A stretch of 64,000 nt of DNA, from the NCBI RefSeq assembly GCF_030718205.1, contig NZ_JAUZQF010000002.1, forward strand, positions 1 through 64,000, given 5' to 3'. The position numbers and the translations under genes are program-made. Source of the stretch: Nonomuraea turcica (GTDB lineage: Bacteria; Actinomycetota; Actinomycetes; Streptosporangiales; Streptosporangiaceae). The notes under the pieces were generated by a model, which was not told the DNA's origin, searched no databases, and was given only the letters and a program-made list of their open reading frames with translations. Shown one piece after another: positions 11,295-17,934 of the stretch; within the stretch, counting starts at the first letter, position 1, and the number at the start of each line of letters is the position of its first letter.

Positions 11295-11795
11295 TTATTC
11301 GCCGGTAACGCCGTCGATACGCTCGCGTAGAAGATCGGCGTGACCGTTGTGGCGGGCGTACTCCTCGATCATGTGGACGAGGATCCAGCGGTGCGTGCAG
11401 TCCCGGCCGTTGCGGTCGCCGACGGCGTCCAGCGGCGTGGCGGCCGAGATGGCGCGGGCGCGCTCGATCTCGTCCTGCCACGTGGCGAACGCCTCCTCGG
11501 CCGAGGCGGTGTCGACGTCGTTGAAGTCGGCGTCGTTGTCGCGGTCCTTGTCCCACAGCTTGGGGATGTCCTCGCCGTTCAGCACGCGGCGGAACCAGGA
11601 GCGTTCGACGTGCGCCATGTGCCTGACCAGGCCGAGGAGGGACAGGGTCGACGGCGGGGCCGAGCGCAGGCGCAACTGCTCGTCCGACAGGCCCGCGCAT
11701 TTGACGGCGAGGGTGGCGCGGTGCCATTCGAGCCAGTTGTTGAGCACCGTCAGCTCGTCGCCGGTGAGGGGTGGTGGGGTACGGGAGTCGATCAC
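11295..11795 (-). CDS. DinB-family (DUF664) protein
   Basis: 166 residues. The pattern is typical of DUF664 in the DinB/YfiT four-helix-bundle superfamily: SLLGLVRHMAHVERSWFRR and a C-terminal HRWILVHMIEEYARHNGHADLLRE. The His residues HM, HM and HN are those that bind a metal in relatives. In actinobacteria some members are mycothiol-dependent transferases; no specific reaction can be given. It lies 36 bases downstream of the secreted coiled-coil gene. Confidence 0.9.
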   Translation of the reverse strand: MIDSRTPPPLTGDELTVLNNWLEWHRATLAVKCAGLSDEQLRLRSAPPSTLSLLGLVRHMAHVERSWFRRVLNGEDIPKLWDKDRDNDADFNDVDTASAEEAFATWQDEIERARAISAATPLDAVGDRNGRDCTHRWILVHMIEEYARHNGHADLLRERIDGVTGE

Positions 11796-11831
11796 GAGCC
11801 TTGACCTTACCTTCGGCCTGGTGTGCGGCTT

Positions 11832-12821
11832 TCAGTGCATGGAGATGTGCACGTGGTCGAAGTGGTTCTCGGTGATGCTGCCGCGGTCCGACATTCCGCT
11901 CCAGCCCGAGCCGTGGTTGATGCGCTGCTTCCAGATCACGTACTTGACGCCGAGCTTGTCCATGTTCTTGATCGCCCACTCCGCGATCCGGTCGCCCAGT
12001 GCGAGGTTCGCGGCCGTCGGCATCGAGCCTCCGGTGCTCATCATGAAGTCGCAGGCGCGTCCGAGCGGGTGCTCGCCACTGGAGCCCGAGCGGAAGCAGC
12101 CCACCGTGTACGGCAGCGAAAAGTTCTTGCCCACCTGCTCGCGCATGAGCCGGGTGCGCGGAGTGATGTTGTCGGAGCCGGAAGGAAGTTCGGGGGCCCA
12201 ACTGCCGTCGGATTTGCGGCCGGTGCCGTACGGCACGAGGTCCTGGAGCTTCTTCTTGATGTCCTCGATGACGTCCTCGGCCTCGTCACGCTGCTTGTCC
12301 ACCTCGGCCGCATCCCCGCGGATCTCGGCCGCCAGCGCGGCGGCGTCCTTGGCGGCCTTCTCCTTGTCGTCACGGGCCTTGGCCACACCCTGCACGAACG
12401 CCTGCTGTTCGACGGTCAGCTGGTTGAGCACGGCCGCGCTGCCGCCGCTCGCGGGCAGCATGAAACCCGGCACCGGGGGGTTGCCGTTCTGGTAGCGAAG
12501 CCGGGCGATCTCGGCGACGCGCTGCTCGGCCGCGGCCAGCGTCTGCTCCGCGGTGGCCAGGCGCTCATTGGCCGTTTTGGCGGCCTGCTGGGCCTTGGCC
12601 AGCTCGACGCGCTTGAGGTTGTACTGCTCGATGAGCTTGTCGACCTTGCTGTTGAGCTGCTTGAGCTGGGCGCGGAGCTCGGACTCCGTCGGTTTGGGGG
12701 CCGCCGACGCCGCGGTCGCCGGGAAGAAGGCGACGGCGGCGGCGGTGATGAGGCTGATGGCAAGACTCGCGAGGGACGGCGAAGGGAGCGGAGCTCCCGA
12801 GCGAATCAGGGCAGCCGCCAC
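11832..12821 (-). CDS. Secreted coiled-coil protein with C-terminal ARB_07466-like domain, c-di-AMP-riboswitch controlled
   Basis: 329 residues. The N-terminus is a Sec signal peptide (LASLAISLITAAAVAFFPATAASA, cleaved after ASA near residue 40), then a long coiled coil (about residues 46-195, ELRAQLKQLNSKVDKLIEQY), and a C-terminal domain ending ENHFDHVHISMH, typical of the ARB_07466-like domain found on actinobacterial cell-wall proteins and resembling M15-type peptidases. The layout matches wall hydrolases such as NlpC/P60 proteins with an N-terminal coiled coil. GTG at 12821 follows GGAGAGG. The c-di-AMP riboswitch in the leader strongly supports a wall-remodelling role; catalytic activity is unproven. 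Confidence 0.82.
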   Translation of the reverse strand: MAAALIRSGAPLPSPSLASLAISLITAAAVAFFPATAASAAPKPTESELRAQLKQLNSKVDKLIEQYNLKRVELAKAQQAAKTANERLATAEQTLAAAEQRVAEIARLRYQNGNPPVPGFMLPASGGSAAVLNQLTVEQQAFVQGVAKARDDKEKAAKDAAALAAEIRGDAAEVDKQRDEAEDVIEDIKKKLQDLVPYGTGRKSDGSWAPELPSGSDNITPRTRLMREQVGKNFSLPYTVGCFRSGSSGEHPLGRACDFMMSTGGSMPTAANLALGDRIAEWAIKNMDKLGVKYVIWKQRINHGSGWSGMSDRGSITENHFDHVHISMH

Positions 12822-12837
12822 GTAGATGTTTCCTCTC

Positions 12838-12980
12838 CCTCTGCCGGCCGGGTTAGCTGACGGGTTCGGGCATGGGAGATCCCTACCACCGAAGTGGATT
12901 CACCCCACGTGCGATGGGTCCCCGGCTCCCGGGCAACTCGCCCGGGATTAGGCGGGCACCGGCCGTTACGGCCAGTGCTT
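12838..12980 (-). ncRNA. ydaO-yuaA (c-di-AMP) riboswitch
   Basis: Minus-strand sequence shows the conserved blocks of the ydaO-yuaA aptamer in order: GGAGCCGGGGACCCATCG, GGGGTGAATCC (12907-12897), GGTAGGGATCTCC (12886-12874) and CGAACCCGTCAGCTAACC (12869-12852). These riboswitches bind cyclic di-AMP and in actinobacteria usually turn off wall-hydrolase and rpf genes. A -10-like TAATAT (12992-12987) would start transcription near 12980. The boundaries are approximate. Confidence 0.88.
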
Positions 12981-12995
12981 ATCGGGATATTAGTG

Positions 12996-13044
12996 GTAGA
13001 TCACGGGTCATGCGACCTTAAGTAGAAATCTATTAGTGATCTAC
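12996..13044. repeat. Inverted repeat at the galT end / riboswitch promoter
   Basis: Exact nine-base arms GTAGATCAC (12996-13004) and GTGATCTAC (13036-13044) with a 31-base spacer, spanning the galT stop codon and lying upstream of the riboswitch transcript. The long loop makes it a poor terminator; it may be a regulatory site for the riboswitch gene. Confidence 0.35.
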
Positions 13045-14106
13045 TCGTGATCGAAGCATGCGTGCGGCCTCCTCCGGCAGCACGTCGTTGACGAAGGCCC
13101 CCATCGCCGACTCCGACCCCGCCAGATACTTCAGCTTCTCCGGCGCCCGCCTGATGGTGAACAGCTCCAGGTGCAGGTAAGCCAGCTCACGGCCCTCTCG
13201 TACCGGCGCCTGGTGCCAGGCCGCGATGTACGGCATCACGACCCCGAACAGCCCGTCGAACGCCTTCAGCACCGACGTGTACAGCGGCGCGAACGCGGCA
13301 CGCTCCGCCTCCGTCAGCGCCGCCAGGTCGGGCACCTGCCGGTGCGGGTAGAGGTGCACCTCGAACGGCCAGCGCGCGGCGGCGGGCACGAAAGCCGTCC
13401 ACAGCTCGTTGGCCGCCACCACCCGCGTGCCGGCGGCGCGCTCGGCGGCCAGCACGTCGGCGAACAGATTTCCCTTGTAGCGAGAGGCGGCGCCCAGCTG
13501 CAGCTTTGTCCGCGGGGTGACGTACGGATAGGCGTAGATCTGGCCGTGCGGGTGCGCGAGCGTGATGCCGATCTCCGAGCCCCGGTTCTCGAAGCAGAAG
13601 ACCTGCTCCACGCCCTCGATGGCGGACAGTTCGGCCGTGCGGTCGGCCCATGCCTCCATGACCAGCTCGACCTGGGCGTCGGACAATCGGGAGAAGGACG
13701 AGGAGTGCTCGGAGGTGAAGCAGACCACCTCACAGCGGCCCACGGCCGGACGGACCTCACTCAGCCCACCCACTTCCCCATAAGTCCCGATATTTTCGGA
13801 AAAAGAGGGGAAGCGGTTCTCGAACACCACCACGTCGTAGTCGTACGCCGGGATCTCCGTCGAGCGCGTCTCCGACGACGGGCACAGCGGGCACTCGGCC
13901 GCCGTGCCGGTCGGCTGGTGCGTCCGCGTCTGCCGATGCCCCGCGATCGCGATCCACTCCTCGGTCAGCGGGTCGTAGCGCAGCTCAGAGGCCACCGGCC
14001 GGGGGTCCAGCGTCCGCCGGTCGATCGCGCTCCTGTCGGCGTCGTCCCGCCGGTCGAAGTAGATCAGCTCTCGGCCGTCGGCCAGGTTGGTGATGGTGCG
14101 CTTCAA
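13033..14106 (-). CDS. galT: Galactose-1-phosphate uridylyltransferase
   Basis: Leloir pathway enzyme that moves UMP from UDP-glucose to galactose-1-phosphate. 357 residues. The HIT-type active site appears as LAHPHGQIYAYPY, and a zinc-binding CPLCPS lies near residue 65. TTG at 14106 is chosen: it follows GGAGGG by six bases and overlaps the deoR stop (TTGA), which indicates translational coupling; the reading frame continues to 14244 without similarity. galE and galK are not in the window, so this copy is part of a deoR-galT pair only as far as seen. Confidence 0.94.
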   Translation of the reverse strand: MKRTITNLADGRELIYFDRRDDADRSAIDRRTLDPRPVASELRYDPLTEEWIAIAGHRQTRTHQPTGTAAECPLCPSSETRSTEIPAYDYDVVVFENRFPSFSENIGTYGEVGGLSEVRPAVGRCEVVCFTSEHSSSFSRLSDAQVELVMEAWADRTAELSAIEGVEQVFCFENRGSEIGITLAHPHGQIYAYPYVTPRTKLQLGAASRYKGNLFADVLAAERAAGTRVVAANELWTAFVPAAARWPFEVHLYPHRQVPDLAALTEAERAAFAPLYTSVLKAFDGLFGVVMPYIAAWHQAPVREGRELAYLHLELFTIRRAPEKLKYLAGSESAMGAFVNDVLPEEAARMLRSRVDH

Positions 14107-17697: not shown

Positions 17698-17768
17698 AGC
17701 GGACGACGGGAATCGAACCCGCGTAGCTAGTTTGGAAGACTAGGGCTCTACCATTGAGCTACGTCCGC
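17698..17768 (-). tRNA. tRNA-Gly (anticodon TCC)
   Basis: Read on the minus strand the sequence begins GCGGACGTAGCTCAATGG and folds into a normal cloverleaf: acceptor GCGGACG/CGTCCGC, anticodon arm with TCC in the loop CTTCCAA, T arm with GGTTCGATTCC. CCA is not encoded. Confidence 0.95.
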
Positions 17769-17857: not shown

Positions 17858-17934
17858 CGGGGCGTGGCGCAGCTTGGCAGCGCGCTTGCTTTGGGAGCAA
17901 GAAGTCGCAGGTTCAAATCCTGTCGCCCCGACCA
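17858..17934 (+). tRNA. tRNA-Pro (anticodon TGG)
   Basis: Begins CGGGGCGTGGCGCAG; acceptor stem CGGGGCG/CGCCCCG, anticodon loop CTTTGGGAG gives TGG, T arm GGTTCAAATCC. The 3' CCA is encoded (17932-17934). 77 bases. Confidence 0.96.

Follow-up and report, generated by a model that had tools for sequence, protein, structure and literature searches.

According to the excerpts available of the sources cited here and below, the c-di-AMP riboswitches of actinobacteria mostly precede cell wall genes (PMC9960051, PMC8079986, PMC10117811, PMC11481543). In C. glutamicum, the element RSnlpC lies before the wall peptidase gene cg2402/nlpC, which c-di-AMP represses, most likely at translation. RSnlpC has no canonical terminator, a CTCC complementary to the GGAG of the ribosome-binding site was suggested to form a pseudoknot with it, and reporter transcript levels were the same with or without a change in c-di-AMP (PMC9960051). 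The excerpts of that report contain no comparative test of the pairing. A switch of S. coelicolor seems to block the ribosome-binding site, acting on translation initiation (PMC8079986), and the c-di-AMP switch of S. coelicolor rpfA, the target of which is also a wall hydrolase, the lysozyme-like Rpf, was reported to terminate transcription (PMC10117811). In a review, ydaO is grouped with the riboswitches in which the aptamer docks to the expression platform (PMC10907184). Two S. lividans riboswitch targets are given, in the source as available, merely as 'Secreted hydrolase - Peptidase'.

Two kinds of described wall enzyme are relevant to the protein discussed here. VldE (Spr1875) of Streptococcus pneumoniae (9flh-9fln in the Protein Data Bank), a member of the VicRK regulon, cuts the cross-linked stem peptide. 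Its catalytic zinc is bound by H301, D308 and H375, and activity was lost on changing any of these residues or H370, D372 or H373, while R294, oriented by S291 and D297, was proposed to polarise the scissile bond (PMC11667670). The N-terminus of VldE is a putative cell-wall-binding (LysM) module followed by a long linker, and its authors already remarked on multidomain homologues, mainly from Actinobacteria (PMC11667670). RipA and RipC are mycobacterial NlpC/P60 hydrolases with a long N-terminal two-helix coiled coil.

The locus described below lies in a 64,000-nucleotide stretch of the Nonomuraea turcica genome, referred to as the window. It combines a c-di-AMP riboswitch with the gene of a coiled-coil protein that carries a VldE-type domain and is probably, in our judgment, a c-di-AMP-responsive translational OFF switch acting on a secreted peptidoglycan L,D-endopeptidase.

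The riboswitch and its conservation

A cmscan search of the whole 64 kb gave a match to RF00379 on the minus strand (12964-12828) with a score of 80.5 bits, compared with a gathering cut-off of 38, and an E value of 4.1e-17. The match spanned the entire model (1-134/134), and the same element was recovered by a whole-genome covariance search. The element is a canonical member of the c-di-AMP riboswitch family. The earlier note had recognized a ydaO-yuaA riboswitch on the minus strand, an assignment that the covariance model bears out; the coordinates it gave, 12838-12992, overlapped most of the element but were shifted 10-28 bases upstream. There were three Rfam matches above cut-off in the window, the riboswitch and two tRNA genes, which lie on opposite strands (17698-17768, minus; 17858-17931, plus). 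The features of the locus were as follows.

12828-12964, minus strand: c-di-AMP (ydaO/yuaA) riboswitch aptamer, RF00379, full-length model match by cmscan
12874-12879, minus strand: UCUCCC, within the loop of the last aptamer hairpin (AGGG...CCCGAA) and 5' strand of the proposed pseudoknot (sequence, comparative support)
12834-12839, minus strand: GGGAGA, proposed 3' strand of the pseudoknot, 2 nt past the outermost model helix and overlapping the ribosome-binding site (sequence, model alignment, comparative support)
12831-12839, minus strand: purine tract GGGAGAGGA, containing the Shine-Dalgarno sequence (sequence)
11832-12821, minus strand: gene of the 329-residue coiled-coil and VldE-type zinc peptidase protein, GTG start, stop included (open reading frame, homology, model)
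12702-12821, minus strand: likely Sec signal peptide, residues 1-40 (...ATAASA/APKP, the slash marking the cut), judged by eye from the sequence
12240-12686, minus strand: two-helix coiled coil, residues 46-194 (model helices 46-111 and 126-194)
11835-12176, minus strand: VldE/MT3-type zinc peptidase domain, residues 216-329 (phmmer, profile, VIA)
12048-12071, minus strand: HPLGRACD, with predicted zinc ligands H251 and D258 (aligned with VldE H301 and D308)
11847-11864, minus strand: HFDHVH, with H320, D322, H323 and the predicted zinc ligand H325 (aligned with VldE H370, D372, H373 and H375)

A gap of 6 nt separates the model match from the GTG of the 329-residue open reading frame; the outermost model helix, termed P1, ends at 12842, 20 nt before the GTG. 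The best-spaced Shine-Dalgarno core was GAGG at 12835-12832, 10 nt before the GTG; the assignment of the purine tract assumes the standard anti-Shine-Dalgarno sequence. A simple scan found no promoter upstream of the riboswitch. Plain RNA folding of the leader, a method blind to pseudoknots, showed no signal of stability, with a z score of -1.10 and 28 of 200 shuffled sequences folding equally well.

A profile search of named genomes, in which the best 80 loci were kept and which is hence biased to close relatives, returned mostly Nonomuraea, together with Streptosporangium, Planobispora, Microbispora, Herbidospora and others. RF00379 was directly upstream of the gene at 75 of these 80 loci (20/20, 20/20, 19/20 and 16/20 in the four batches), the exceptions being L095, L115, L117, L118 and L119. 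A family sample of 61 genomes had RF00379 in 35, among the matches listed, and a match to the protein in 60, coil-only matches included; at least 22 of the 35 had the riboswitch adjoining a VldE-type gene among the matches listed. The riboswitch was present at 16 of 29 loci from other genomes of this sample (16/20 in one batch, 0/9 in the other). Ten of the 13 loci lacking it came from genomes with no RF00379 match among the matches listed, and the other three (L029 in G057, L030 in G051 and L034 in G060) belong to genomes in which RF00379 occurs at other places. A relaxed search (E up to 1), which did detect the riboswitch at L241, L242 and L245, found no degenerate element at the five exceptions named above, at L027, L029 or L030, or before the paralogues in the same genome (L243, L244) and in a sister genome (L246). 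Beyond the family, a class-level sample of 148 genomes contained the pairing in one genome, G153, twice, among the matches listed, and both riboswitches were confirmed by covariance search.

The pairing of the riboswitch with a VldE-type gene is real and well conserved. With a score twice the cut-off and the same place kept in 75 of the 80 named loci, it is extremely improbable that the element is a non-functional relic or a chance match, and a chance match was rejected on score and conservation of position; nothing was found in favour of either reading.

In the interval 12-30 nt past P1, CTG was the earliest start-like codon in frame at 38 of 92 VldE-type loci (for example L022, L024, L025 and L080), and it stood at 18 nt in 37 of the 38; the other relatives have GTG (51) or TTG (3). 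Should CTG be the start, genes called by standard programs would lack part of the signal peptide.

The protein encoded downstream

Searched against the Protein Data Bank with phmmer, residues 216-329 matched 9flh (E 3e-21) and 9fln (E 7.4e-20), and a profile search returned the VldE-type domain at E 8.8e-26. The structure model had a mean pLDDT of 78.7, with ten-residue means of 86-95 in the VldE-type domain except for 66 at residues 241-250. Foldseek matched the model to the VldE C-terminal domain (best E 2.1e-8), and VIA aligned it with the VldE domain at Z 16.1 and an rmsd of 1.6 over 105 residues. All three zinc ligands of VldE, as well as R294, H370, D372 and H373, were matched, R244 aligning with R294 in the phmmer alignment, and R244, H251, D258, H320, D322, H323 and H325 showed no variation across 40 aligned sequences. 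The match to the VldE active site is incomplete, since S291 and D297 are replaced by V240 and S247 in the same alignment. Sequence, modelled fold and zinc-site residues place the C-terminal domain in the VldE/MT3 type of zinc peptidoglycan L,D-endopeptidases; its activity is predicted. It differs from VldE in its setting, a coiled coil taking the place of the LysM module and linker and a riboswitch standing before the gene in place of VicRK control.

Alternatively, the domain might store zinc or act as a binding module, or it might cut another bond, as other members of clan MD do (D,D-carboxypeptidase, L-Ala-D-Glu peptidase). VldE can hold up to four zinc ions in a non-catalytic state, and among the proteins related to it in structure are D,D-carboxypeptidases as well as an L-Ala-D-Glu endolysin (PMC11667670). 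The replacement of S291 and D297 also speaks for such a role. However, the three residues that bind zinc in VldE, its R294 and the other three on which its activity depends are all matched and invariant in the 40 rows, and alignment with 9flm, the catalytically competent form, gave the model a Z of 15.8. A storage role or a different bond is thus unlikely, and a zinc L,D-endopeptidase is preferred.

The earlier note had described the product as a coiled-coil protein with an ARB_07466-like domain, and neither an rpf nor an NlpC/P60 gene. The model agrees with the first part, with a long two-helix coil at residues 46-194. The exclusion of the two families also held: the 329-residue protein had no Pfam match of the Rpf or NLPC_P60 type at E up to 1, and the Rpf lysozyme-like transglycosylase domain gave no match in either Pfam or NCBIfam at that threshold, so that an Rpf identity was rejected. 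The Pfam and NCBIfam matches of the protein were all sub-threshold and within residues 19-241. The weak NlpC/P60 matches of NCBIfam, to DIP1281 (24.4 of 517 bits) and RipA (17.3 of 625 bits), were far below cut-off and fell in the coiled coil (residues 47-194), and an NlpC/P60 identity was rejected as well. The name ARB_07466 was absent from all search results and from the literature searched. VldE/MT3-type zinc L,D-endopeptidase is the better description of the domain, and it would give an enzymatic basis to the 'wall opening' suggested in the note. For 40 aligned members, 17 Pfam families were listed, and neither NLPC_P60 nor any peptidase family was among them; Pfam annotation alone would therefore miss the function.

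The N-terminal coil weakly resembles the N-terminal domains of RipA and RipC. Foldseek matched 6ewy (E 3.2e-3) and a profile search matched RipA (E 2.6e-3) and RipC (E 0.013), but unrelated coils matched as well or better, Lpp at E 2.4e-4 by profile and PI3K at Z 12 by VIA, and RipA was absent among the 50 VIA matches listed for the protein model. The two types share the architecture of a hydrolase behind a long coil, whereas the catalytic domain is NlpC/P60 in RipA and RipC and of the zinc peptidase type here.

The proposed loop-tail pairing and the level of control

The complementarity between the hairpin loop and the tail beyond P1 was examined in 221 riboswitch leaders, a set that took in 120 of 124 listed riboswitch places. 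Of these, 213 were parsed, and merging 20 repeated loop/tail pairs left 193 distinct pairs; L212, L231, L002, L008, L026, L101, L105 and L114 were left out of the pairing counts and of the comparison of leader designs below. The 193 pairs scored 14.63 with their own partners compared with a permuted mean of 13.45 (sd 0.15), a score reached in none of 5000 permutations. When permutation was confined to the 75 loops holding TTCC, 88 of 5000 reached the own score, and 2 of 5000 did so within the other 118. A GGAAG tail accompanied 61 of 73 CTTCC loops, the remaining 12 lacking it, and 6 of the 120 other loops (P 8.6e-31, relatedness ignored). The tails of 30 CTCCC loops were GGGAG (25), GGAG (4) and GGAAG (1), the association of CTCCC with GGGAG having a P of 7e-14, relatedness again ignored. 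Those of 78 CTCC loops were GGAG (64), GGGAG (6), GGAAG (2) or none of these (6).

In a contrast test, own and swapped partners were compared in disjoint nearest-neighbour pairs under 18 settings, none of them preselected, leaving out pairs that shared a loop or a tail or whose scores did not differ. Own partners were better in all 18. With no distance limit, the ratios of own to swapped ranged from 77:19 to 62:34 and were significant in 6/6 settings; at aptamer distances up to 0.35 they ranged from 42:15 to 34:25 (2/6 significant, both with a 12-nt tail), and up to 0.25 from 23:12 to 20:17 (0/6 significant; for example 22:13, P 0.18). Longer tails weakened the contrast between close relatives. 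The comparative data support the loop-tail pairing well but not conclusively.

The leaders may fall into two designs. The family sample and the same genome together yielded 126 parsed leaders, and of these GGAAG was absent in 36 of 39 with a coil-bearing target versus 21 of 87 with no coil in the target, relatedness ignored. A further 87 leaders of VldE-type genes, chosen by homology, had GGAG or GGGAG in 86 cases, neither in 1 and GGAAG in 0. The automatic choice of the downstream frame was wrong in some GC-rich loci and, of 91 loci known to be VldE-type, missed 13; the numbers for coil and VldE in this comparison are consequently lower bounds. It is possible, though somewhat less likely than not, that actinobacterial riboswitches have either a separate CTTCC/GGAAG pseudoknot upstream of the ribosome-binding site or a CT(C)CC/GG(G)AG pseudoknot fused into it, and that coiled-coil hydrolases (VldE-type, NlpC/P60) use almost only the fused form. 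If this were true, the tightest translational shut-off would belong to coil-guided peptidases.

In the mechanism that we propose, high c-di-AMP would bind the aptamer and stabilise both P1 and a pseudoknot between UCUCCC (12879-12874) and GGGAGA (12839-12834). Ribosomes could then not load, because the 3' strand of the pseudoknot overlaps the ribosome-binding site of the GTG. A fall in c-di-AMP, for example on an osmotic shift or during outgrowth, would open the site, and the coiled-coil protein would be made and exported. Its VldE/MT3 zinc domain would cut cross-linked stem peptides, while the coiled coil would probably hold the enzyme in place or keep it in check, as the coils of RipA and RipC do. 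Ligand binding and the OFF direction, like the bond cut, export and the role of the coil, are put forward on this basis, and we infer the translational level of control from the layout of the leader.

Control could alternatively be exerted on transcription, with c-di-AMP causing RNA polymerase to stop early (at a site in the gene, through Rho or by pausing) and the pseudoknot only stabilising the aptamer. The rpfA transcript was five-fold up in an S. venezuelae disA mutant, premature termination was reported for rpfA (PMC10117811), and PMC9960051 refers to terminated in vitro transcripts of the S. coelicolor switch. Against this, 0 terminator-like sites were found in 11750-13100 (1.2 were expected from shuffles), and a terminator-type expression platform was rejected; the gap between P1 and the GTG is just 20 nt, the pseudoknot strand overlaps the ribosome-binding site, and the C. 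glutamicum reporter transcripts did not differ with c-di-AMP. We regard control of transcription as improbable. The complementarity could also be a by-product of tails that are G-rich as ribosome-binding sites and loops that are pyrimidine-rich for other reasons, any occlusion then being due to P1 alone. The contrasts between near relatives, which were not significant (22:13 at distances up to 0.25), and the variation of the contrast results with tail length are in keeping with a by-product. Loop and tail nevertheless co-vary in two ways, CTTCC with GGAAG and CTCCC with GGGAG, own partners were favoured throughout the settings, and many GGAAG tails precede a separate AAGGAG-like site, yet their loops match GGAAG. 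A by-product is accordingly a decidedly unlikely explanation, and occlusion of the ribosome-binding site by the loop-tail pseudoknot is preferred. Compared with C. glutamicum RSnlpC, the target is a VldE-type zinc peptidase rather than NlpC/P60, and the pairing has comparative support; the comparative data make the single-riboswitch suggestion in C. glutamicum testable.

The predicted c-di-AMP regulon and its implications

The whole-genome covariance search gave ten RF00379 matches, nine of which precede predicted wall hydrolases. The targets are of the NlpC/P60 (L003, L005, L008), CHAP (L002, L006 and, by near identity, L007) and GH25 (L004, L010) types, together with the VldE-type gene described here (L009) and a gene with no Pfam match (L001); no Rpf was seen among the ten. 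The NlpC/P60 target L003 shares its coiled coil with the VldE-type protein (E 4.2e-25, among 221 proteins). The genome has one diadenylate cyclase domain (PF02457). The VldE-type protein would thus be one arm of a predicted set of wall hydrolases under c-di-AMP riboswitches. Like almost all actinobacterial members, the element stands before a predicted wall-enzyme gene; its aptamer shows no difference from the family, and it is the type of target enzyme that differs.

Several other arrangements were observed. The top-scoring riboswitch of the genome (L001/L247, G000:C49:139477-139611, minus strand, 103.4 bits) has a ribosome-binding site that serves a short open reading frame of 13 codons followed by TGA. 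The secreted-looking L001 gene begins about 120 nt later, past a T-run, an arrangement suggestive of a leader peptide or attenuator under riboswitch control; the terminator scan flagged no site at L001/L247. Other short frames occupy the equivalent place behind the riboswitch at L121, L122 and L205. Two divergent c-di-AMP riboswitches (L006/L010) lie about 440 bases apart (G000:C21:152388-152506, minus, and 152943-153087, plus), one of them weak (40 bits) before the GH25 gene and the other before the CHAP gene. L006 and L007 (G000:C38) are a near-identical riboswitch and CHAP gene on two contigs, either a recent duplication or an assembly artefact. Close same-strand pairs of RF00379 matches occurred at G048:C24:3629/4065, G016:C2:1010265/1011099 and G050:C139:2125/3041. 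The riboswitch target L210 (G010:C101) ends like what we take to be a VanY/M15 carboxypeptidase.

No report of a VldE-type protein as a c-di-AMP riboswitch target was found in the literature searched, which excludes the target lists of Nelson 2013, Block 2010 and Haiser 2009. The claim of the earlier note that the locus widens the set of wall proteins under c-di-AMP control is favoured by this result, but an earlier case may lie among those lists or the S. lividans 'Secreted hydrolase - Peptidase' targets. As far as seen, one enzyme type is added to a known regulatory theme and not a new kind of system.

If this reading is right, a zinc L,D-endopeptidase comes under c-di-AMP control in the Streptosporangiaceae in addition to targets of the NlpC/P60, CHAP and GH25 types, and a single osmotic or turgor-linked signal would consequently gate several classes of wall bond. 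In a proposed model, low c-di-AMP weakens the wall (PMC11481543, as excerpted), and for that model the locus would supply a concrete enzyme and bond.
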